Shown here: piece by piece, positions 4,802 to 62,869 of the stretch
Numbering within the stretch: position 1 is the first letter of the stretch
How the letters are laid out: every line of letters begins with the position of its first letter
NCBI RefSeq assembly: GCF_011683915.1
Contig: NZ_JAAQPH010000018.1
Span: forward strand, 1 to 64,000
DNA from: Pelagibius litoralis
GTDB taxonomy: Bacteria; Pseudomonadota; Alphaproteobacteria; Kiloniellales; Kiloniellaceae
Reading direction: 5' to 3'
DNA length: 64,000 nt
Made by a program: the position numbers and the translations under genes
The notes under the pieces: model-generated
What the model was told of the DNA's origin: nothing
Seen by the model: only the letters and a program-made list of their open reading frames with translations
The model's database searches: none

Positions 4802-7227
4802 ACGTCGCCGCCGCCCGGCGGGATCACTTCGCGTTTGCCGACGTGGTTTGCTGCTGAAATCAAGCCTTCGTTCTCCATCCGCTCGATGATCCGCGCGGCG
4901 CGGTTGTAACCGATCTGCAGGTGGCGCTGGACGAAGGAGGTCGAGGCCTTGCGATTCTGCAGCACCACCGCCACGGCGCGGTCGTAAAGGTCGTCGCCGC
5001 TGCTTTCGCCCATGCCCACCGCACCGCCGCCGTCCATATCGCTTTCGGCGTCTTCGGTGATGGACTCGATGTAGGAAGGCTCCCCCTGTCGTTTCAAGAA
5101 GGCGACGACGTCTTCGACCTCCTGGTCGGTCACCAGGGGGCCGTGCACGCGGGTAATGCGCCCGCCCTGGGCCATATAGAGCATGTCGCCCTGGCCCAGC
5201 AGCTGCTCGGCGCCCTGTTCGCCCAGGATCGTGCGGCTGTCGATCTTGGAGGTGACGTGAAAGGAAATCCGGGTCGGGAAGTTCGCCTTGATGGTGCCGG
5301 TGATGACATCCACCGAAGGACGCTGGGTGGCGACGATCAGGTGGATGCCGGCGGCCCGCGCCATCTGTGCCAGACGCTGGATCGCCGCCTCCACGTCCTT
5401 GCCGGCGACCAGCATCAGGTCGGCCAGTTCGTCGACGATGATCACGATCAGCGGCAGGGGCTCCAGATCGAAGGGCTGCTCCTCGAAGATCGGCTGGCCG
5501 GTCTCCGGGTCGAATCCGGTCTGCACCTTGCGGGTCAGCACCTCGCCCTTGCGCTGTGCCTCCTGGACGCGGTCGTTGTAGCCCTCGACGTTGCGCACGC
5601 CCATGCGCGACATGGCGCGGTAGCGCTCCTCCATCTCGCGCACCGCCCATTTCATGGCGACCACGGCCTTCTTCGGTTCGGTCACCACCGGCGCCAGAAG
5701 ATGGGGGATGCCGTCATAGACGGAAAGCTCCAGCATCTTCGGGTCGACCATGATGAATTTGCAGCGGTCCGGGCCCAGGCGGTAGAGCAGCGAGAGGATC
5801 ATGGCGTTGATCGCCACCGACTTGCCCGACCCGGTGGTGCCGGCGACCAGCACGTGGGGCATCCGGGCCAGGTCCACCAGGCTCGGCAGGCCGCCGATAT
5901 CCTTGCCCAGGACCAGGGGCAGCTTACCGCCGTTCTTCTCGTAGTCCTCGGCGGCCAGCAGTTCGCGCAGATAGACCGTGTCGCGCTTGGCGTTGGGCAG
6001 CTCGATGCCGATGACCGAGTCGCCCGGCACCACGGCGACGCGCACCGAAACGGCGCTCATCGATCTGGCGATATCGTCGGCCAGGCCCACCACCCGGCTG
6101 GTCTTGGTGCCCGGCGCCGGCTCCAGGTCGTAGCGGGTGACGACCGGGCCCGGCCGCACCTTCACGATTTCGCCGCGCACGCCGAAGTCTTCCAGCACGG
6201 TTTCCAGGATGCGGGCGTTTTTTTCCAGGGAATCGCGGTTGAGGCCCTGGCTCTTGCCGGCGCCCTTGGGCAGGTCCAGCAGGGTCAGCGGCGGGGTCTC
6301 GTAGGCGCCGGTGGCCCCCAGGTCCAGCCGGCCCTGGGCGGCGGTCCGGGCGCGCTTGCCGGGCTTGGCGTTGCGCGGTTTGGTGGCGACCAGGGCGGCG
6401 GCCTCCGCCGGTTCGTCGTCCTCTTCGATGGCAAAGGCGGCGGCCGGCTCCCCATCGTAGCCTGGGCCATACCCCGGGTCGTCCCCGTCCAGCTTCGGTT
6501 CGATGCGCTGGCGGCGTGCCGCGCGCCGCGCCGCCCTGGCTTCGCCCGGCTCCTCCTGGCTCTGGCGTTGCACGGCCATGCGAATGCCGCGCCGCGCGCC
6601 GCCGAAGACCCAGGCAAGGCCGCCGCGCAGCATCTGCCACTCCGGCCGGGTCAGGCCCAGCGAGAACAACAGCCCGGCAAAGCCGGCCAGAAAGGCCACG
6701 AAGGCCAGAATCCAGAACGGAACGCCCAGAAACAGGCCAAGCTCGGTCAGCGCCAGATCGCCGACGAAACCGCCCAGCTTGTTGTCCAGCGGCCAGGAAT
6801 CCGGCTTCGGGATGGACTCCAGCGCCATGGCCAGCAGGATCAGGCCGGTCGGGAAGGCCGCCAGGCGCCACCACCAGCGGCTCGGCAGTTGCCGTTCGCG
6901 CAGCAGGCGCCAGCCCCAGGCAAAGAGCACCAGGGGCGCCAGCAGGGCGGCGACGCCGAGCGACTGCATCATGATGTCGGCGGTGTGGGAGCCGAACAGG
7001 CCCAGCGGATTGCTGACCGGCGTATTGTCGATACCGCCGACCGCATCGTTCCACGACGGGTCTTGCGGGTTGTAGGTCAGGCAGGCCACGAAAACCGCGA
7101 AAGCAAAGAACGCCAGCAGGGCGCCGGCCAGTTCGATCGCGCGTTTCCTGAAGAACGCGCCGGTGCCGCTGGGCAGCAGCGGCGGGCGCCCTTCGCGGGT
7201 GCCGGCGTTGCTCGTTCGCATAGCCAT
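4798..7227 (-). CDS. ftsK: DNA translocase FtsK
   Basis: An 809-residue septal DNA pump that coordinates chromosome segregation with division. The N-terminus has four hydrophobic segments within the first 210 residues. A charged, Ala/Arg-rich linker follows, then the motor with Walker A GTTGSGKS near residue 464, Walker B region LIVIIVDELADLM, and ATQRPSVDVITGTIKANFP. The last 70 residues form the gamma winged helix (FVQRHLQIGYNRAARIIERM) that reads KOPS sites. The length is near the SpoIIIE/short-FtsK class. It lies four bases after the aminotransferase and overlaps lolA, so the three genes look like one operon. Confidence 0.95.
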   Translation of the reverse strand: MAMRTSNAGTREGRPPLLPSGTGAFFRKRAIELAGALLAFFAFAVFVACLTYNPQDPSWNDAVGGIDNTPVSNPLGLFGSHTADIMMQSLGVAALLAPLVLFAWGWRLLRERQLPSRWWWRLAAFPTGLILLAMALESIPKPDSWPLDNKLGGFVGDLALTELGLFLGVPFWILAFVAFLAGFAGLLFSLGLTRPEWQMLRGGLAWVFGGARRGIRMAVQRQSQEEPGEARAARRAARRQRIEPKLDGDDPGYGPGYDGEPAAAFAIEEDDEPAEAAALVATKPRNAKPGKRARTAAQGRLDLGATGAYETPPLTLLDLPKGAGKSQGLNRDSLEKNARILETVLEDFGVRGEIVKVRPGPVVTRYDLEPAPGTKTSRVVGLADDIARSMSAVSVRVAVVPGDSVIGIELPNAKRDTVYLRELLAAEDYEKNGGKLPLVLGKDIGGLPSLVDLARMPHVLVAGTTGSGKSVAINAMILSLLYRLGPDRCKFIMVDPKMLELSVYDGIPHLLAPVVTEPKKAVVAMKWAVREMEERYRAMSRMGVRNVEGYNDRVQEAQRKGEVLTRKVQTGFDPETGQPIFEEQPFDLEPLPLIVIIVDELADLMLVAGKDVEAAIQRLAQMARAAGIHLIVATQRPSVDVITGTIKANFPTRISFHVTSKIDSRTILGEQGAEQLLGQGDMLYMAQGGRITRVHGPLVTDQEVEDVVAFLKRQGEPSYIESITEDAESDMDGGGAVGMGESSGDDLYDRAVAVVLQNRKASTSFVQRHLQIGYNRAARIIERMENEGLISAANHVGKREVIPPGGGDV

Positions 7228-8854: not shown

Positions 8855-10222
<1,368 letters not shown>

Positions 10223-55741: not shown

Positions 55742-57397
55742 ATGCGCCGCGCCATTGTCTTTGTGGTTCTGGCCGCGCTGGCGGCGCTCGCCGCCTTTTG
55801 GCTGGCGGAGCATCCGGGCAGCGTCTCCATCGAATGGCTGGGCTACCGGATGGAGCCGCCGGTCGGCCTGCTGGTGCTGGCCGGGGTTGTCCTGTCGATT
55901 TCCGTCATCATCGTCTACCGCATCATTACCTTGATCCTGGGAACGCCGGGCAGCATTGGCCGGGCCTTTGCGTCGGGCCGGCGCAAGCGGGGTTTCCGCG
56001 CGCTCAGCCAGGGCATGGTGGCGGTCGCCGCCGGCGACGCGCAGGAAGCGGCCCGCTGGGCCCGCAAGGCCGACAGCCTGTTGGAGGACCCGCCACTGAC
56101 CCTGTTGCTCTCCGCCCAGGCGGCCCAGCTCGGCGGCGACGAACAGGCGGCGGAGAAATACTTCAACGCCATGCTGGAAAAGCCGGAGACCCGCTTTCTC
56201 GGTCTGCGCGGTTTATTGATGCAGGCGCTGCGCAGCGGCGACGACCAGCGCGCCCTGGGATACGTCCGCGAAGCCCATGCGCTCCGGCCCAAGACGCCCT
56301 GGGTGGTGACCAACCTCTTCGAGTTGAGCGAGCGCACCGGCGACTACGATGCTGCCGCCGGCGCCTTGAAGCAGGCCGCGAAGATCAAGGCCCTGCCGAA
56401 GCCTGACGCCGACCACAAGGGCGCGGTGATCACCCTGGCCAAGGCGGAAAAGGCCCTGGCCGAAGAGCGCAGGGACGAAGCCTTTTCCCTGGCCCGCGCC
56501 GCCGACAAGGCCGATCCGGACCTGCTGGCCGCCGCGGCCCTGCATGCCCGTCTGGCGGTGGAGAGCGGCCGTTTCCGCGAAGCCGCCAAGGTGGTCGAGC
56601 GGTCCTGGCCGCGTACCCCCTCGGCGGAACTGGCAGGGCTCTATCGCCGGGCCGCGCCCGCCGCCAAGCCGCTGGAGCAGGTGAAGCGCTTCACCAAACT
56701 TGCCGCCCTCAACCCCGATCACCGCGAAAGCCACCTGGCCCTGGCCGAGGCCAGTCTGGAGGCCAAGCTCTGGGGCGAGGCCCGGCGCCATCTCGGCATT
56801 CTCGTCACCCTGGAAGGCGAGGACCCGGCCCGGGCCCAGGTCTGCCGCCTCATGGCCCGGCTGGAGGAGGCCGAGCATAACGACAGCGAGGCGGCGCGGG
56901 CCTGGCTTGAACAGGCCGCCCATGCGCCCCGCGATCCGGCCTGGGTCTGCAATGCCTGCGGCGCCGTGGCGGCGCAGTGGAGCGTCGATTGCGGCGCCTG
57001 CGGGGCTTTCGACAGTCTCGCCTGGCGGGCGCCGCGCCGGGTCGGGACGCTGGGCGCCGCCGACGCGGGTTCCTGGGGCTCGGCGCTGGCCCGGATCACC
57101 GCCAGGCATCCGGTAAAGACCGCCGAAGCGCCGGTCGGCATTCCTCTGGCGCCGCTGCCGGATCAGCCGCCATTGCCGGACTGCGCCCCGGCGGAACCGT
57201 CCAAACCGGCGCCTCAGCCGAGCGCCGGCGCGGCGCTTCCCGCGGCGAAACCCGCCCCCCCGGTTTCACTGACGCCGGCGGCATCAAAGCCCGCGCCGGC
57301 GGGCCCCAACGGTCAGCAGCCGCCGGAAAGCAGCCCGGAAGACGACGATCCGGACGAGGCCTCTGCCGTGGAAGGCTCCGTCCCGCCGCGCCCGTAA
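55742..57397 (+). CDS. hemY: HemY-type TPR membrane protein with zinc-ribbon tail
   Basis: A 551-residue protein. Two membrane helices (residues 3-20 and 42-65) form the HemY N-terminal domain, followed by TPR-like helices to about residue 390. Near residue 400 a four-cysteine unit CNACG...CGACG looks like a rubredoxin-type zinc ribbon similar to that of LapB. A Pro/Ala-rich tail follows. HemY of the hem operon is not protoporphyrinogen oxidase; its exact role in haem synthesis is unresolved. It starts three bases after the mitofilin stop, so it is co-transcribed. Confidence 0.87.
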   Translation: MRRAIVFVVLAALAALAAFWLAEHPGSVSIEWLGYRMEPPVGLLVLAGVVLSISVIIVYRIITLILGTPGSIGRAFASGRRKRGFRALSQGMVAVAAGDAQEAARWARKADSLLEDPPLTLLLSAQAAQLGGDEQAAEKYFNAMLEKPETRFLGLRGLLMQALRSGDDQRALGYVREAHALRPKTPWVVTNLFELSERTGDYDAAAGALKQAAKIKALPKPDADHKGAVITLAKAEKALAEERRDEAFSLARAADKADPDLLAAAALHARLAVESGRFREAAKVVERSWPRTPSAELAGLYRRAAPAAKPLEQVKRFTKLAALNPDHRESHLALAEASLEAKLWGEARRHLGILVTLEGEDPARAQVCRLMARLEEAEHNDSEAARAWLEQAAHAPRDPAWVCNACGAVAAQWSVDCGACGAFDSLAWRAPRRVGTLGAADAGSWGSALARITARHPVKTAEAPVGIPLAPLPDQPPLPDCAPAEPSKPAPQPSAGAALPAAKPAPPVSLTPAASKPAPAGPNGQQPPESSPEDDDPDEASAVEGSVPPRP

Positions 57398-57562: not shown

Positions 57563-57638
57563 GCCGCCTTAGCTCAGCTGGTAGAGCATCGCATTCGTAA
57601 TGCGGGGGTCGGGTGTTCAAGTCACCCAGGCGGCACCA
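57563..57638 (+). tRNA. tRNA-Thr (CGU)
   Basis: 76 bases with encoded CCA. The acceptor stem GCCGCCU pairs with AGGCGGC. The anticodon loop UUCGUAA gives anticodon CGU between stems UCGCA and UGCGG, and the T arm GGGUG-UUCAAGU-CACCC is complete. Confidence 0.97.
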
Positions 57639-57706
57639 TTTCCCCCAGGATACTGTAAAACGCCAGAAGGTTTTGCCTTTATGGGCAGCTGGATTTGCTG
57701 TTTTCC

Positions 57707-57740
57707 GGTGCCGATTCGACGTAGGTCGAAAACGCTATAG
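57707..57740. repeat. Half copy R4 of the GC-rich repeat
   Basis: GGTGCCGATTCGACGTAGGT followed by CGAAAACGCTATAG equals the right tail of R3, without the long palindrome. The window itself begins with AAAACGCTAT, the end of the same tail. Confidence 0.7.
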
Positions 57741-57788
57741 AGGACATGCGACCAAAATAGTCGGATGACCACCTTAGACCCAATGCGG

Positions 57789-58181
57789 CTATGGGCTTTT
57801 CCTTTTCTCCAGCGCTTCTCCTACAGTTTTTCCCTGAGCAGGCTCATAAAGCCCACCTCCCAATTGAGCGTGACCCCAGCTCATGATTTGCAGGAGAAGC
57901 GATTCCAGTTCCTTTCCTCTGTCGGTCAAGTAGTAGCGGTATCGAACGGGTCGGTCCTGATAGGCTTCGCGCTGCACAAGCCCCCATGCCATCAGCCTCT
58001 TTAGACGTTGCGACAATAAATTCGCAGGCACTCGTTCCGCGCTGCTTTGCAGCGCCTGAAACGTATGTTTGCCGTGCCACATCAGATCGCGAACGACGAG
58101 CAACGTCCATTTGTCGCCGAGTATTTCCAAAGTGCGCGCGATGGAGCATCGAGAGCGAAAGTCATGTTCTGGATTTTGCAT
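57789..58181 (-). CDS. HxlR-family transcriptional regulator
   Basis: A 130-residue winged-helix protein of the HxlR type. The usual cysteine near the N-terminus (FRSRCSIARTLEILGDKWTLLVV in part) is present and may sense thiols or oxidants as in other HxlR/YodB members. The recognition region is NLLSQRLKRLMAWGLVQRE. The ATG at 58181 has GGAG upstream. Lower G+C than the flanking core genes. It faces a cysteine-synthase-like gene across a spacer with an inverted repeat. Confidence 0.88.
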   Translation of the reverse strand: MQNPEHDFRSRCSIARTLEILGDKWTLLVVRDLMWHGKHTFQALQSSAERVPANLLSQRLKRLMAWGLVQREAYQDRPVRYRYYLTDRGKELESLLLQIMSWGHAQLGGGLYEPAQGKTVGEALEKRKSP

Positions 58182-58220
58182 GGAGGTCTCCGAAAGGCAG
58201 TAGCACATCCCTCTCTACCC

Positions 58221-58262
58221 AAGTGACTTTAAAAATGAAAGCTTGACGAACGTTAGTCACTT
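58221..58262. promoter_or_regulatory. Inverted repeat between the HxlR and cysteine-synthase-like genes
   Basis: AAGTGACT (58221-58228) and AGTCACTT (58255-58262) are exact inverted octamers separated by 26 bases, each followed by TTAA-type sequence. They are good candidates for HxlR binding sites controlling both divergent genes. Confidence 0.55.
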
Positions 58263-58304
58263 TAATTATGGAAGTTACATACTGAATTTCTGCGAGGGCT
58301 CGCC

Positions 58305-59216
58305 ATGATCGCGATCGGGAAAACACCGTTGATCAAATTGAACCATTTGACCGATCCTGGCAGTGCTGACGTCTATGTGAAATGGGAGGGGGCGAACCCA
58401 ACCGGCAGCATGAAAGACAGAATGGCGCTGTCGATGATTGAAGGTGCGGAACGGCGCGGCGTTCTGAAATCTGGTGGGCGTGTGATCGAATACACTGGCG
58501 GCAGCACGGGAAGCTCTTTGGCGATGGTCTGTGCCACGCGCGGCTATGGTGCGCATTTCGTGTCTTCAAACGGCTTTTCCGAAGAAAAGCTTCAAACGAT
58601 GCGTGCCTTCGGCGCCGAGGTGGAGATTGTTCATGCGGAAGGCGGCATTCTTACCGCCGACGTGATCAACCGAATGATCTCTCGTGCAAAAGAGCTGGCT
58701 GATCGGCCGGGCACGTTCTGGCCGGATCAGGTAAACAACATGGACAACAAGCTAGGATATCACGCGATGGCGCGCGAAATCCTAGATCAAGTTGATGGCC
58801 CTATCGACGAGTTTGTCATGGCGGCAGGCGGCGGCGGATGTATCTCCGGCAATGCGGAAATCCTGAAAGACCACAATCCGCAAACGCGGATCATCGCAAT
58901 TGAACCCTACTATGTACGCAATGTTTCAGGGGGGGACACAAGTGGCACCCACAAGCTCGAAGGGATCGGATTGTCGTTTGTACCAACTATTCTGCGGCGC
59001 GACCTGATTGACGAGGTTGTGTCGGTGAAAGATGAGGACGCGTATTGGGGTGCGAGGTCATTGGCGCGGCAAGAAGGTTTGTTTGGCGGCGTCACTTCGG
59101 GCGCAAACGTCTGGGCGGCCCTTCAGCGTGCCAATGAACTGGGACCCGGAAAAAAGATCGTGACGGTGATAATTGATACCGGGATGCGGTATTTGAGCGA
59201 CGACTTGTATCGGTGA
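58305..59216 (+). CDS. Cysteine synthase-family PLP enzyme
   Basis: A 303-residue fold-type II PLP protein of the CysK/CBS group. The Schiff-base lysine is Lys37 in NPTGSMKDRMA. The substrate loop reads EYTGGSTGSSLA instead of the common PTSGNTG, and the phosphate loop is AAGGGGCISG. These changes make it a divergent member; O-acetylserine sulfhydrylase, cystathionine beta-synthase or another beta-replacement activity are all possible. Base composition is lower in G+C than nearby genes. Divergent from the HxlR regulator, which probably controls it. Confidence 0.85.
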   Translation: MIAIGKTPLIKLNHLTDPGSADVYVKWEGANPTGSMKDRMALSMIEGAERRGVLKSGGRVIEYTGGSTGSSLAMVCATRGYGAHFVSSNGFSEEKLQTMRAFGAEVEIVHAEGGILTADVINRMISRAKELADRPGTFWPDQVNNMDNKLGYHAMAREILDQVDGPIDEFVMAAGGGGCISGNAEILKDHNPQTRIIAIEPYYVRNVSGGDTSGTHKLEGIGLSFVPTILRRDLIDEVVSVKDEDAYWGARSLARQEGLFGGVTSGANVWAALQRANELGPGKKIVTVIIDTGMRYLSDDLYR

Positions 59217-59239
59217 CCTATCACGGCGGCATTAGCTGT

Positions 59240-59917
59240 TCATGATTTGAAGGCTGTCACAGGCAACGTCAGGACCACCGCTTCCAGGATGGCGGCGTAG
59301 TGGCAGCCGGCGGCGGCCAGCACCAGGGCATGCCAGATCGCGTTGTGATAGGGCAGACGCCGCCAGAGGTGAGAGACCACACCCAGGGTGTAGAGACCGC
59401 CACCGGTGACCAGCAGCACCAGGGCGGCGGTCGAGAGCGCCGCGACCAGTGGCTCCACCACCGCCAGGATGGCCCAGCCCTGGGCCAGGTAGAGGGCGAT
59501 GGCGGCCCGCTCGAAGCGGCGCGGCAGGAACAGCTTCAGGGCGACGCCGGCCAGCGCCACTACCCAGACCGCCGCCAGCAACGCCAGGCCCCAGCCGCCG
59601 CCGATGACGATCAGCGAAAAGGGGGTATAGGTGCCGGCGATCATCACGAAGATCGCGGCATGGTCGAGGCGCCGGAGGATCTCTTTCCAGCCGGGCCGTT
59701 TCGCCATGTTGTAGGCGGCGGAGCAGGCAAAAACCGCGATCAGGCCGGTCCCATAGACCGCCAGGCTGAGAATCGAGAGCGACGAGCCCTGCGGCAGGGC
59801 GAGCAGGATCAGGATCGGAAAGGCGATCAGGCTGGCGCCTACGCCGAGAACGTGTACCGCCGCATCAGCACGGCGCTCGGCGGAGGCATAGGTGGGAAAG
59901 ACAAGAGGCTCGGGCAT
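59240..59917 (-). CDS. Hemolysin-III / PAQR-family membrane protein
   Basis: A 225-residue protein with seven hydrophobic helices. Family signatures are SAAYNMAKRPGWKEILRRLDHA near residue 73 with the putative metal His, IAGTYTPFSLI, and the last-helix WHALVLAAAGCHYAAI. Despite the name, these are PAQR-fold proteins linked to membrane fluidity and lipid homeostasis, not proven toxins. High G+C, unlike the cassettes on both sides. Its start is 30 bases from the palindrome at 59947. Confidence 0.92.
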   Translation of the reverse strand: MPEPLVFPTYASAERRADAAVHVLGVGASLIAFPILILLALPQGSSLSILSLAVYGTGLIAVFACSAAYNMAKRPGWKEILRRLDHAAIFVMIAGTYTPFSLIVIGGGWGLALLAAVWVVALAGVALKLFLPRRFERAAIALYLAQGWAILAVVEPLVAALSTAALVLLVTGGGLYTLGVVSHLWRRLPYHNAIWHALVLAAAGCHYAAILEAVVLTLPVTAFKS

Positions 59918-59946
59918 CGAAGGGGGCTCTTATAAGCACTCATAGT

Positions 59947-59979
59947 ATTGCGAAATTCGCAATAACTTGCTATTATAAT
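59947..59979. promoter_or_regulatory. Palindrome overlapping a sigma-70-like promoter
   Basis: ATTGCGAAATTCGCAAT (59947-59963) is a perfect 8-1-8 palindrome. On the plus strand TTGCGA (59948-59953), 17 bases and TATTAT (59971-59976) form a good -35/-10 pair, so a bound regulator would block the promoter. It may serve the cassette genes (start at 60147), hemolysin-III, or both. Confidence 0.55.
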
Positions 59980-60146
59980 CCCTTACGTGCGCACTAAGAT
60001 GCACAGCATCGAAAGGTATGAAAGGGTGACTACCAATGATCATAGTTTGGAATTTGTTAACTCAAGATCATTGCGACGAAGCTATTTGCATCAGAGTCAA
60101 GCATGATTCATGATGCCGAAGAATCTGTTTTGTCTGAGGCTCCTTG

Positions 60147-60980
60147 ATGAGTGGTCGACCTAAAGATCTACCTGACTTCGAGAATCCACCACTTGTAGAG
60201 GTTGTTCTTGGCGTCCAATTCGAACGTATCCAAGGATTTCAGTCCATTCACATAGGCGATCTTTGGAAAGCGTTTAGGGACAAGTTTCCCTTTGTTCAAG
60301 AGCAGCCTCCTCTTGGGCCGAGTTTTGAGACATTTGGAACGCGATCACAAACCAAAGGCCCAAAGGTAGAGCTTATATCGGGCCCGATGCCCACACCGCG
60401 CCTGTGGTTCATGGATGAAGCCAAGAATGAGCTCATTCAATTCCAGTCGGATAGATTTATCCATAATTGGAGAAAAATAAGCGAAAGCGATCCATATCCA
60501 CGGTACGAGCAGATAAAGGAAAACTTCGCGGATGAACTAAACGTTCTTGCTCGGTTTCTCGAGCAATCTGAATTGGGAGATCTTCGCCCAAACCAGTGTG
60601 AGGTTACCTATATAAACCATATAGTTTCCGAAGAAGCAGAGAACCTATGCGCCGACCCAGGCAAAGTATTTCGGATGTTTGGTAATATGCCCGACACGCT
60701 TCGGGCCGAAGAAATCGAAGATGCACAATTCTTGCTTCGTTACGTAATAAAATCTGACGATCAGCTTCCAGTGGGCAGATTGTTAATCGAATCTAAGCCC
60801 GGGTTCTCAGATGAAGGCCTTCCTGTAATCGCACTATCAATTTTGGTGCGTGGTCAGCCGAGCGAACCGAATATAGAATCAGCTTTAGAATTTATTGATA
60901 TAGGACGCGAGAAAATTGTTGGGCACTTTGCACAGTCCACGACAGAACTCATGCATGGCCGGTGGAGGAGGAAGCAATGA
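60147..60980 (+). CDS. TIGR04255-type protein of unknown function (cassette gene 1)
   Basis: A 277-residue soluble protein resembling the TIGR04255 family: opening ENPPLVEVVLGVQFERIQGF, then HIGDLWKAFRDKFPFVQEQP, then VTYINHI in the middle. These proteins are sporadically distributed and have no established function. There is no signal peptide or membrane helix. The ATG at 60147 has GAGG upstream, with an in-frame TTG just before. The gene is markedly AT-richer than the core: the 60 bases from 60601 contain only 27 G/C. It overlaps gene 2 by ATGA. Confidence 0.78.
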   Translation: MSGRPKDLPDFENPPLVEVVLGVQFERIQGFQSIHIGDLWKAFRDKFPFVQEQPPLGPSFETFGTRSQTKGPKVELISGPMPTPRLWFMDEAKNELIQFQSDRFIHNWRKISESDPYPRYEQIKENFADELNVLARFLEQSELGDLRPNQCEVTYINHIVSEEAENLCADPGKVFRMFGNMPDTLRAEEIEDAQFLLRYVIKSDDQLPVGRLLIESKPGFSDEGLPVIALSILVRGQPSEPNIESALEFIDIGREKIVGHFAQSTTELMHGRWRRKQ

Positions 60981-61498
60981 CTGCAGATGCAGCGTATGAC
61001 CCGGACGCTAGCTTGATGGCTTCAGGGGTATCTAGCTTGAGAAGCTTTTCACTCCGACAAAACCTGACTGAGGAGGATGTTATTCAGGCTCCGCGTAGCG
61101 GCTCAATCAGCTCCTATTTTGCGGCAAAACAAACGAATAAATGCCTGTTTTCGATTGCTAGGAAACTCCAAGAACTCGCAGGTTTGCCAGTTGGTTGGGA
61201 TGGGTACGATGGGCAACCGCTTCAAAGCGATATCGCGAATTTCGCTTTCAAATTGCTGTCGGAGACGCTCGATCCAGATTGCCCTCCGCCTCAAATCGTT
61301 CCGCTTGGCTATGGGGGCCTTCAATTGGAATGGCACGAAAGAGGAATTGATCTAGAAATTGAGATTGAGGCGCCAAACCGAGTTGCGTTGTACTTCTGCG
61401 ATCACCAAACAGGAGAAGAGATCGAACAGCAGATCTCAACAGACTATACAGCAATGGCTGAGCAGCTAGCAAAGCTGAGCTCGCGCATCCAGACCTGA
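60977..61498 (+). CDS. Hypothetical protein (cassette gene 2)
   Basis: A 173-residue soluble protein. Its recognisable block is ELAGLPVGWDGYDGQPLQSD followed by PPQIVPLGYGGLQLEWHERG and DLEIEIEAPNR; I have seen this LPxxWDGYxxxP / GGLQLEWxxxG pattern in scattered bacterial proteins without known function. GGAGGAGG stands seven bases before the ATG. The start overlaps the gene 1 stop by four bases, so translation is coupled. AT-rich like gene 1. Confidence 0.78.
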   Translation: MTADAAYDPDASLMASGVSSLRSFSLRQNLTEEDVIQAPRSGSISSYFAAKQTNKCLFSIARKLQELAGLPVGWDGYDGQPLQSDIANFAFKLLSETLDPDCPPPQIVPLGYGGLQLEWHERGIDLEIEIEAPNRVALYFCDHQTGEEIEQQISTDYTAMAEQLAKLSSRIQT

Positions 61499-61518
61499 TT
61501 CTTGGTTGTTCGGGTCTC

Positions 61519-61953
61519 ATGGCAAAACCTCCGCGGGACGGTTCCAACCGAATCATGCCTTATGATGACCCCGATATTTTGGAAAACGACGGGCTCATTC
61601 GTTATATTAATCCCGAGTATCATTTGGTTCCGGACCAAAACACTGGTCAGCCTCGTCTGTCGACTGGCGCGTTTTCGGAATCAAGTGGGCCGTCCGGCGG
61701 AATGTCAGTAAACCTTGAGAGACCGATGGTAGAGGCGGGCGTTAATGTCACGCACACTTTGCCAAACCCTGAATTTGGTGCTGTTCGGCTAATTGCCGGC
61801 GCACTCAGAGCGATGGGCTGTAGAGTTGGGAGTGATCCCAAGGAAGGCAATCCATATCACGGTTCTGTATGGGGAATACCCAAATCGAAAGGGCAGAAGA
61901 GGAGGATTGCCGAGACTGCCATATGGGTAAAGAAGCCAGACGGAATGACTTAA
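61519..61953 (+). CDS. Hypothetical protein (cassette gene 3)
   Basis: A 144-residue protein. INPEYHLVPDQNTGQPRLST and GAFSESSGPSGGMSVNLERP are the most striking segments; the C-terminus is basic (KSKGQKRRIAETAIWVKK). Similar short proteins often occur next to WDGY-type genes, but no activity is known to me. It begins 20 bases after gene 2 without a strong ribosome site. AT-rich. It likely forms one transcription unit with genes 1 and 2. Confidence 0.7.
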   Translation: MAKPPRDGSNRIMPYDDPDILENDGLIRYINPEYHLVPDQNTGQPRLSTGAFSESSGPSGGMSVNLERPMVEAGVNVTHTLPNPEFGAVRLIAGALRAMGCRVGSDPKEGNPYHGSVWGIPKSKGQKRRIAETAIWVKKPDGMT

Positions 61954-62203
61954 TAGTCGGGCACATCCTTTCGTCGAAATTTGATCTAAGTCGGCAATCT
62001 CAATCTTCCAATAGATTGCTGCACGGGTGCGGTTCCAAGTTTTTTAATGCCCTTTCTCCAAAGCGACCCAAATTCCGAACTTTGCCAAGAGCCCGTAACA
62101 CCTCTGTGACTTTGCCTGCCGGGGCTTTGAGTGTTTAAATGCGCGGGAATCGGGCCCGGGCTTCAAGAAGCCGGGCCGCGCAGCGCTGACGTCGGGGGAC
62201 CAG

Positions 62204-62869
62204 ATGACACTCGGGAAGATGACACCCGGAAATCGGAACATGCTTACTGCCGGGGCCGCGGCCGGGCTGCTGCTCTTGCTGAGCGCCTGCGGCACGCCGG
62301 GCGGCGACTACGACGACCTGATGGCGGAACGCAACTTCGTCGGCGCCAAGAACGATGCCTTTTCGATCTGTCACGGCCATGGCTGCCGGCTGACTTCCGA
62401 CGTATCCCTGACCGAATTGGAATGGGACCCGGTCGCCGACATCTTCGCCGAGCCGGCGGCCTCCGCCGATATCGAGCGGGCGCGCATCGCCATGGCCACG
62501 GCGATCCTGGAAGAGGCGGTGGGCCGCAAGACCGGCACCCATAAAGACCAGGGCGGCACCTTCAACGCCATGAGCGGCAACCATCAGTTCGACTGTGTCG
62601 ACGAGACCAGCAACACCTCCGTCTATCTCACCCTGATGGCCAAGGCGGGCTATCTGAAGTGGCACAAGATCAAGGGCTGGGCCGGGCGCGGCCTGCTGAT
62701 CGACGGCTCCTGGCCACACCAGTCCGCCGTGGTGGTGGAGTTGAAGACCGGTCAGGCCTACGCCGTCGATACCTGGTTCGAAGACAACGGCCGCCCGGCC
62801 CACGTGGTGCCGTTGGAAGAATGGCGGGCCGGCTGGTCGCCCCCGGGTTTCGTCGACAGCATTCTCTGA
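62204..62869 (+). CDS. Lipoprotein with candidate Cys-His-Asp active site
   Basis: A 221-residue lipoprotein: hydrophobic AGAAAGLLLLL then lipobox LSAC. In the mature part NHQFDCVDETSNTSVYL near residue 127, WPHQSAVVVEL near 167 and AYAVDTWFEDNGR near 182 line up in the order Cys, His, Asp, as in transglutaminase-like or papain-like cysteine hydrolases. This is a motif reading, not a family match. High G+C, core-like. The spacer 61954-62203 before it holds a GC hairpin at about 62152-62177 and no gene. Confidence 0.65.
   Translation: MTLGKMTPGNRNMLTAGAAAGLLLLLSACGTPGGDYDDLMAERNFVGAKNDAFSICHGHGCRLTSDVSLTELEWDPVADIFAEPAASADIERARIAMATAILEEAVGRKTGTHKDQGGTFNAMSGNHQFDCVDETSNTSVYLTLMAKAGYLKWHKIKGWAGRGLLIDGSWPHQSAVVVELKTGQAYAVDTWFEDNGRPAHVVPLEEWRAGWSPPGFVDSIL

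Follow-up and report, generated by a model that had tools for sequence, protein, structure and literature searches.

The first 64,000 nucleotides of contig NZ_JAAQPH010000018.1 of the Pelagibius litoralis assembly GCF_011683915.1 (hereafter the window) contain a compact cassette of three co-directional genes, referred to below as genes 1, 2 and 3:

60147..60980, + strand: gene 1, TIGR04255 family protein of 277 aa; its start is the ATG at 60147.
60977..61498, + strand: gene 2, W-D-G-Y protein of 173 aa, with an ATGA overlap with gene 1 (60977-60980).
61519..61953, + strand: gene 3, small protein of 144 aa starting 20 bases past gene 2, with conserved R28, S63, R97 and H114.

A model-made reading of the DNA (the original prediction) had described three co-directional genes with an ATGA overlap between genes 1 and 2 and a 20-base gap between genes 2 and 3, and the coordinates are as it claimed; its start for the cassette, 59918, takes in ~230 bases of upstream DNA. 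The three genes have a G+C content of 46.4%, 50.0% and 51.5%, respectively, compared to 64.8% for the whole window, and the lowest-G+C 2-kb segment of the stretch (48.1%; step 250 bases, mean 64.9%, sd 4.0) starts at 60001. The base counts given earlier for blocks 60601 (27/60) and 39601 (44/60) are exact; with ~48% G+C, the cassette is therefore 'AT-rich' only relative to the window.

The search for the same families in the same order elsewhere that had been proposed as a check was carried out. Scanning genome contigs with the gene 1 alignment gave 131 pattern matches and 109 relatives, of which the best 80 were kept, and a viral-contig scan added two more, for a total of 82 loci, all found by gene 1 (these hold two near-identical pairs, L040/L041 and L028/L070, and L074, L082 and L044 are apparently the same contigs as L015, L017 and L020). 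With profiles grown from the window genes, gene 2 was directly downstream of gene 1 in 81 of the 82 loci (not in L056), and gene 3 was downstream in 78 (not in L032, L033, L050 or L056), a count that includes L104 and L110, where the gene is in two pieces; in L059, gene 3 lies 2 kb further on, behind a transposase-like open reading frame (ORF). The cassette is thus no accident of this locus, and it occurs in records named for nine phyla, the labels being those of record titles, mostly of metagenome bins.

Linkage of genes 2 and 3 was also assessed using two broader profiles, one of 27 rows for gene 3 (A8) and one of 24 rows for gene 2 (A9), into which divergent rows were admitted by operon position plus motif. 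Run separately on the same 398 genomes of the phylum, they detected gene 3 in 23 genomes (24 places) and gene 2 in 25 (26 places). Both were found in 22 genomes, 14 of which (by handle) contributed no row to A8 or A9, and were always adjacent there, so that orthologues of the two do not lie apart, a possibility that the original prediction had raised; 23 of the 24 gene 3 places adjoin a gene 2. The one exception, in G548 (E 4e-4), looks like a chance hit, and the gene 2 profile alone matched in G328, which has a gene-3-like ORF by eye, in G346, and in G389 (L165), where gene 3 is in two out-of-frame pieces. A first contig scan using gene 2 alone had given no match. A chance cluster is ruled out by the gene order in the 82 loci together with the linkage across the 398 genomes.

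In a comparison of 75 rows including the window (leaving out L059, L104 and L110, as well as L069, with a stop in gene 1), the distance matrices of the three genes correlate pairwise with r of 0.65, 0.76 and 0.73, and in each case 0 of 1000 permutations gave a value as high. Mean pairwise amino-acid difference is 0.61-0.75, and, of the pairs whose differences were measurable and unsaturated, the four closest gave a dN/dS of 0.06-0.31 for every gene (L040/L041 differ too little for this estimate). The three genes are hence a conserved co-directional unit under purifying selection. In a sample of the class comprising 289 genomes, that of the window included, 18 have TIGR04255, in 22 copies; the three-gene order was seen by ORF inspection in 12 of these and, with gene 3 detected by profile, in a thirteenth (G070).

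Gene 1 was matched by the NCBIfam model TIGR04255 over profile positions 2-251 of 252 with a score of 70.8 bits (E 1.5e-19), above the curated cut-off of 30, which upholds the family assignment made earlier. Eighteen of its positions are invariant in 79 of 79 sequences (P14, P15, E18, Q24, W40, Q98, Q100, N107, W108, Y117, Q150, E152, Y155, N157, R211, F261, T265 and W273), many of them E, Q, N, W or Y. The family, entered as 'sporadTIGR04255' with function unknown, has a description that names no function or partner genes, and a literature search by name and synonyms found no paper naming it. Gene 1 had no PADLOC match and no sign of an internal duplication. Gene 2 matched PADLOC PDC-M32A at positions 257-368 of 375 (E 1.7e-12), that is, its C-terminal third only; its W74, P105, P109 and W119 are kept in 80 of 80 sequences and Y77 in 71 of 80, and hence the W-D-G-Y motif ascribed to it is largely kept among relatives.

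Gene 3 of the window had no match in Pfam, NCBIfam, PADLOC or PHROGs; Pfam matched none of the three genes, and searching the PDB by sequence gave no convincing relatives of any. One PDC-M32B profile matches 12 of the 71 members of the gene 3 alignment at E ≤1 (best 5.1e-6), though not the row of the window itself, and Pfam hits are only scattered, in one or two members. S63 and H114 are present in 71 of 71 members, R28 in 70 and R97 in 69; in the divergent set of 27 rows, H114 is kept in 27, and R28 and S63 in 25 each. Two candidate relationships were rejected by hhalign, both with probability ≤0.4%: to RES-like toxins (PF08808; compared using 16 RES rows) and to SspB-like adaptors (PF04386). 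The latter was tried because L124 (4932-6237; an Acetobacter persici plasmid) has a real SspB gene after a doubled W-D-G-Y protein: there, the tandem-duplicated protein overlaps the gene for SspB, the ClpXP adaptor (Pfam 2.5e-11), and another SspB-annotated gene is nearby.

Genes 2 and 3 form a tighter pair that is also found with other upstream partners or alone. Ten upstream proteins were checked: nine are TIGR04255 (that of L174 is a piece under the cut-off) and one, in L121 (G330), was not recognised. Full-length PDC-M32A was found in five places (covering at least 325 of 375 positions), and most of the copies seen lie in type I restriction-modification (R-M) operons: L195, the wider region of L111, reads HsdM, M32A, RhuM-like, HsdS, where Pfam supplied the Hsd and RhuM names and the G404 gene 3 place comes directly after M32A; L112 and L113 have the order HsdM-M32A-HsdS by eye; and in L115 only the HsdS side is visible. 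At L114, which has a full-length M32A, neither an R-M gene nor gene 3 was found. In L194, a gene for an AbiLi-like AAA ATPase (E 3.1e-77) is followed by genes 2 and 3 and preceded by one for a Tle1-like phospholipase. In L117/L196, a TPR-like region (by eye) is fused to gene 2, with an MntA-like nucleotidyltransferase (Pfam) and HepT (by eye) nearby; HepT was identified by Pfam near the pair in L123. L160 and L167 have the pair without a recognised partner.

PADLOC lists PDC-M32 (M32A plus M32B) as a candidate defence system. Gene 2 corresponds to the last third of M32A and gene 3 relatives match M32B, in the same order, whereas M32A has ~250 extra N-terminal residues where the window has a separate TIGR04255 gene; full-length M32A (375 positions) is absent from the cassette, with gene 2 covering 257-368. 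The cassette and PDC-M32 therefore appear to have their last two parts in common, the first being different. PDC-M32 is named among the PADLOC hits in Sinorhizobium meliloti prophages (PMC12429752). Likeness to AbiL is restricted to the one relative locus with the ATPase, L194; no AbiLii was recognised by eye among its ORFs, and the cassette of the window lacks an ATPase.

One explanation for such exchangeability would be a control module recruited by other defence systems, in which genes 2 and 3 gate a partner (HsdM/HsdS, the AbiLi-like ATPase or TIGR04255) that does the work. It would account for the same pair having several unrelated partners, two of which bring candidate effectors of their own (type I R-M in L195, the Tle1-like hydrolase in L194). 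We consider it unlikely, given that TIGR04255, the usual partner among these loci, has no known activity of its own, and that pairs without a recognised partner exist.

Gene 3 is lost more often than gene 2. Across the 82 loci it is absent in L032, L050 and L056, broken in L033, L104 and L110, and cut by the contig end in L063, while gene 2 is absent only in L056 (four gene 2 copies flagged as 'broken' by script merely lack the variable N-terminus). Five loci (L032, L033, L050, L104, L110) thus keep gene 2 with gene 3 lost or broken, though some frameshifts, in metagenome bins, may be assembly errors. Outside this set, gene 3 is in pieces in L165 and missing in L114. The asymmetry fits a costly gene 3, which, judged by its distribution, appears to depend on gene 2. 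A toxin–antitoxin-like addiction module that serves only to stabilise its carrier element, with gene 3 as toxin, gene 2 as antitoxin, gene 1 as third component or regulator, and phage protection secondary or absent, would be in line with this loss bias, with gene 3 never occurring without gene 2 in these sets bar the one chance-looking hit, with the partnerless pairs of L160 and L167, with the coupled translation of the window's genes 1 and 2 and with the cassette being the sole cargo of the ~2 kb elements described below. Yet none of the window genes matched a known toxin or antitoxin family in Pfam, NCBIfam, PADLOC or PHROGs, the Pfam hits among gene 3 relatives are confined to one or two members, a third protein is usual, and type I R-M operons incorporate the pair, which makes this alternative doubtful, if the closest competitor among those weighed.

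The cassette is a foreign insertion in the Pelagibius chromosome, within the following segment:

59936..62086, no strand assigned: inserted segment of ~2.1 kb, 47.8% G+C, between hlyIII and the upstream region of a lipoprotein gene; its left edge is uncertain within ~59920-59945.

The gene at 62204, which we read as lipoprotein-like, was found in 12 of 21 genomes searched, including the window's own and all seven others of the genus, and the region upstream of its homologue was compared in these seven. Four of them (L187, L188, L189 and L193) keep the flanking genes with nothing cassette-like in between, and 0.34-0.50 kb separates the aligned end of hlyIII from that of the lipoprotein gene, compared to 2.3-2.5 kb in the window; in L187, homology to the window restarts at 62087. 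In L190-L192, no hlyIII match was found at the upstream region of the lipoprotein gene. The foreign origin that had been proposed from base composition is thus borne out by cassette-free sites in four genomes of the genus. The window's genome has a single TIGR04255 copy.

Elsewhere, the cassette is found on mobile DNA. Two viral contigs carry it, one copy beside an integrase, and on a Mycobacterium plasmid it lies directly after the MobF relaxase gene. Phage GenBank records gave no gene 1 match, and plasmid records one match for gene 1, four for part of gene 2 and none for gene 3. We examined 140 of 254 nearby ORFs (148 nearest picked, with five contig-end pieces and those of L056, L105 and L109 left out), and among the families listed for them (the first 25 of 138 and the first 25 of 133) integrase was the commonest Pfam family (six members). 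Many neighbours are metabolic genes, and gene 1, rich in conserved Q, N, W, Y and E, resembles a binding protein in this respect, as would suit an ordinary accessory metabolic or ligand-binding operon that is mobile by happenstance. Against this stand the divergence of 0.61-0.75, the sporadic presence (gene 1 in 18 of 289 class genomes), the carriage by phage and plasmid and the relation to PDC-M32, and we regard such an operon as the least probable of the explanations considered, indeed very unlikely.

ARAGORN identified 20 tRNA genes and one tmRNA in the 82 loci, with 10 of the tRNA genes (in nine loci) at most 500 bases from the cassette compared to 1.6 expected, a roughly six-fold excess. 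Exact flanking repeats of 52 (L096), 45 (L102) and 45 (L093) bases were found in three of 79 places, the window included, whereas none of 2693 control windows reached 18 bp. The repeat corresponds to the 3' half of tRNA-Thr(CGT) in L096 and L102, with host sequence differing between the two, and to the 5' half of tRNA-Ser in L093. Start-to-start distances between repeats in this set are 2048, 2063 and 2162 bases, and only the three cassette genes are enclosed; all three genomes contain other integrase genes, one of which adjoins the same tRNA in L093. These tRNA-bounded bare cassettes are new here and are our most surprising result. They resemble integrative elements at tRNA genes and those elements that lack an integrase but are retained between att sites (CIMEs), with direct repeats from a tRNA half in L096, L102, L093 and probably L202, and differ in being only ~2.0-2.4 kb long, with three genes and no integrase inside; the copy in the window has no repeat.

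A further 20 loci were selected because their cassettes or pairs are divergent. In L202, an exact repeat of 24 bases extends to the contig end; by eye it is the 3' half of tRNA-Phe, and L202 is likely a fourth tRNA-bounded case, although ARAGORN finds no complete tRNA at the repeat. An element of 6.3 kb lies at tRNA-Arg in L215, with a 44/45 copy and an integrase inside, and gene 3 of L216 overlaps at its end with the 3' end of tRNA-Thr(TGT). In L205, a 29-base exact repeat (5783-5811, 9180-9208), a duplicated protein-gene start, brackets 3.4 kb with a divergent cassette. The remaining 16 have no long repeat. In the tRNA-adjacent loci L065, L074, L082, L089, L100 and L110, no second tRNA copy was found, bar a neighbouring tRNA gene in L065.

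A tRNA gene of the same type as in L096 and L102 is also present in the window:

57563..57638, + strand: tRNA-Thr(CGT) (ARAGORN), downstream of a hemY-like gene and 2.3 kb from the cassette.

No copy of this tRNA of at least 14 bases was found in the window, and the best repeat flanking the cassette is 10 bases long; that the window's own cassette is a tRNA-bounded element was therefore ruled out. The gene upstream, at 55742-57397, is the one we take to be hemY-like, and its homologues adjoin the cassette and tRNA-Thr(CGT) in L096, L102 and L274 (genes 1 and 2 of L274 were assigned by profile, gene 3 by position only). In the family of L102, three of 129 genomes have a gene 1 match: L102's own, L274 and L275, the last with no tRNA near the cassette. 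It is thus possible, and we propose it tentatively, that the cassette itself is an integrase-less mobile unit of ~2.0-2.4 kb that enters tRNA genes (Thr, Ser and probably Phe) via recombinases supplied in trans, the hemY/tRNA-Thr(CGT) site being a recurrent landing place in Alphaproteobacteria for divergent copies, with the window's copy close by. If so, it would be among the smallest tRNA-integrated immunity or addiction elements.

The surroundings of this tRNA-Thr vary within the genus. In the window, a second foreign insert (57645-59260; 53% G+C in the 1-kb block from 58001) lies directly after it and encodes an HxlR-type regulator and a pyridoxal phosphate-dependent (cysteine synthase-like) enzyme. 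In L187 and L188 the aligned hlyIII block starts 33-38 bases past the aligned tRNA block, and other DNA follows the same tRNA-Thr in L189 (4874-6572) and in L190-L192, up to the lipoprotein-like gene. The site looks like a hotspot because other genus members carry different DNA there.

Upstream of gene 1 there are two overlapping features:

59946..59964, + strand: inverted repeat TATTGCGA-AAT-TCGCAATA, a possible operator, overlapping the sigma-70-like site.
59948..59976, + strand: sigma-70-like site TTGCGA-17-TATTAT, a 9/12 consensus match only.

The palindrome on which the original prediction had based a private operator is real, while the promoter and operator come down to a weak consensus match: the stretch has six promoter-like sites compared to 2.5 expected and one terminator-like site (the palindrome itself, 59946-59964) compared to 2.9, and because consensus matches are this cheap, a putative private promoter/operator is only plausible. 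A further sequence, GAGTCAAG, occurs upstream of gene 1 in five of the 82 upstream regions (those of the window, at ~60097, and of L029, L035, L096 and L102) and is possibly a regulatory site.

Altogether, the cassette is a widespread, selected and mobile unit related to a listed defence candidate, which the original prediction had understated. Judged from sequence comparison, the three genes probably make up a so far uncharacterised module of bacterial defence or addiction. Our favoured but tentative interpretation, at a rough probability of 0.42, is that the cassette is an accessory module of three proteins that moves horizontally and most likely serves in defence against phages or mobile elements. 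The coupled products of genes 1-3 would then act as one assembly, in which gene 3, with its invariant S and H and conserved R, may be the active or toxic component, its action being a guess; gene 2 would be the partner that gene 3 cannot do without, as antidote or adaptor; and gene 1 could be an exchangeable sensing or scaffolding subunit (which component senses is likewise a guess), in a slot that would be filled elsewhere by the N-terminal domain of PDC-M32A, the AbiLi-like ATPase or the TPR-like region. Infection is the presumed trigger that would set gene 3 free or switch it on.

The suggestion that the cassette belongs with defence, toxin–antitoxin or signalling modules thus stands as far as association goes (PDC-M32, type I R-M operons, the AbiLi-like ATPase, HepT/MntA-like proteins, phages, plasmids and tRNA-bounded elements), and is weakened by lone TIGR04255 copies and the scarcity of defence genes nearby. 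Several observations weigh against the defence interpretation. Nine of the 22 TIGR04255 copies in the class sample (L002-L005, L007, L010, L016, L018 and L019) are without genes 2 and 3, a helix-turn-helix protein adjoining gene 1 in L004 and L005. Defence matches among those listed for the 140 neighbours are few (two AbiJ, one HsdS and one Vsr, besides some helicase profiles), and the Pfam families listed are mainly of housekeeping and metabolism. The loss bias towards gene 3 could stem from its terminal position, in a locus set collected through gene 1. The converse also occurs: gene 1 has a stop within the match in L069 and is only a C-terminal piece, close to a contig end, in L174, gene 3 being retained in both. 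Genes 2 and 3 may also have a regulatory role instead of being effectors, given that their neighbours in L194 are a Tle1-like phospholipase and an ATPase and that type I R-M comes with an effector of its own. Finally, the gene 1 tree is partly sorted by host phylum (15 label changes; shuffled mean 35.4, minimum 8), so that exchange between phyla is not constant and spread not unrestrained.

As an observation apart, other small neighbours lie beside lone TIGR04255 copies in L002, L003, L004, L010 and L019, with a family recurring by eye ('QGD...SQTCD', no Pfam match) in L004, L010 and L019.

What emerges is a unit without an assigned function that occurs in records bearing the names of nine phyla, is under purifying selection where this is measurable and has repeatedly been caught as a free-standing insertion; at ~2 kb, it is small enough for direct testing. 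If the tRNA-bounded copies move, they would provide a very compact means to spread immunity. If the cassette is a defence system, TIGR04255 and PDC-M32 would be one family, with a shared gene 2-gene 3 core and exchangeable partners.

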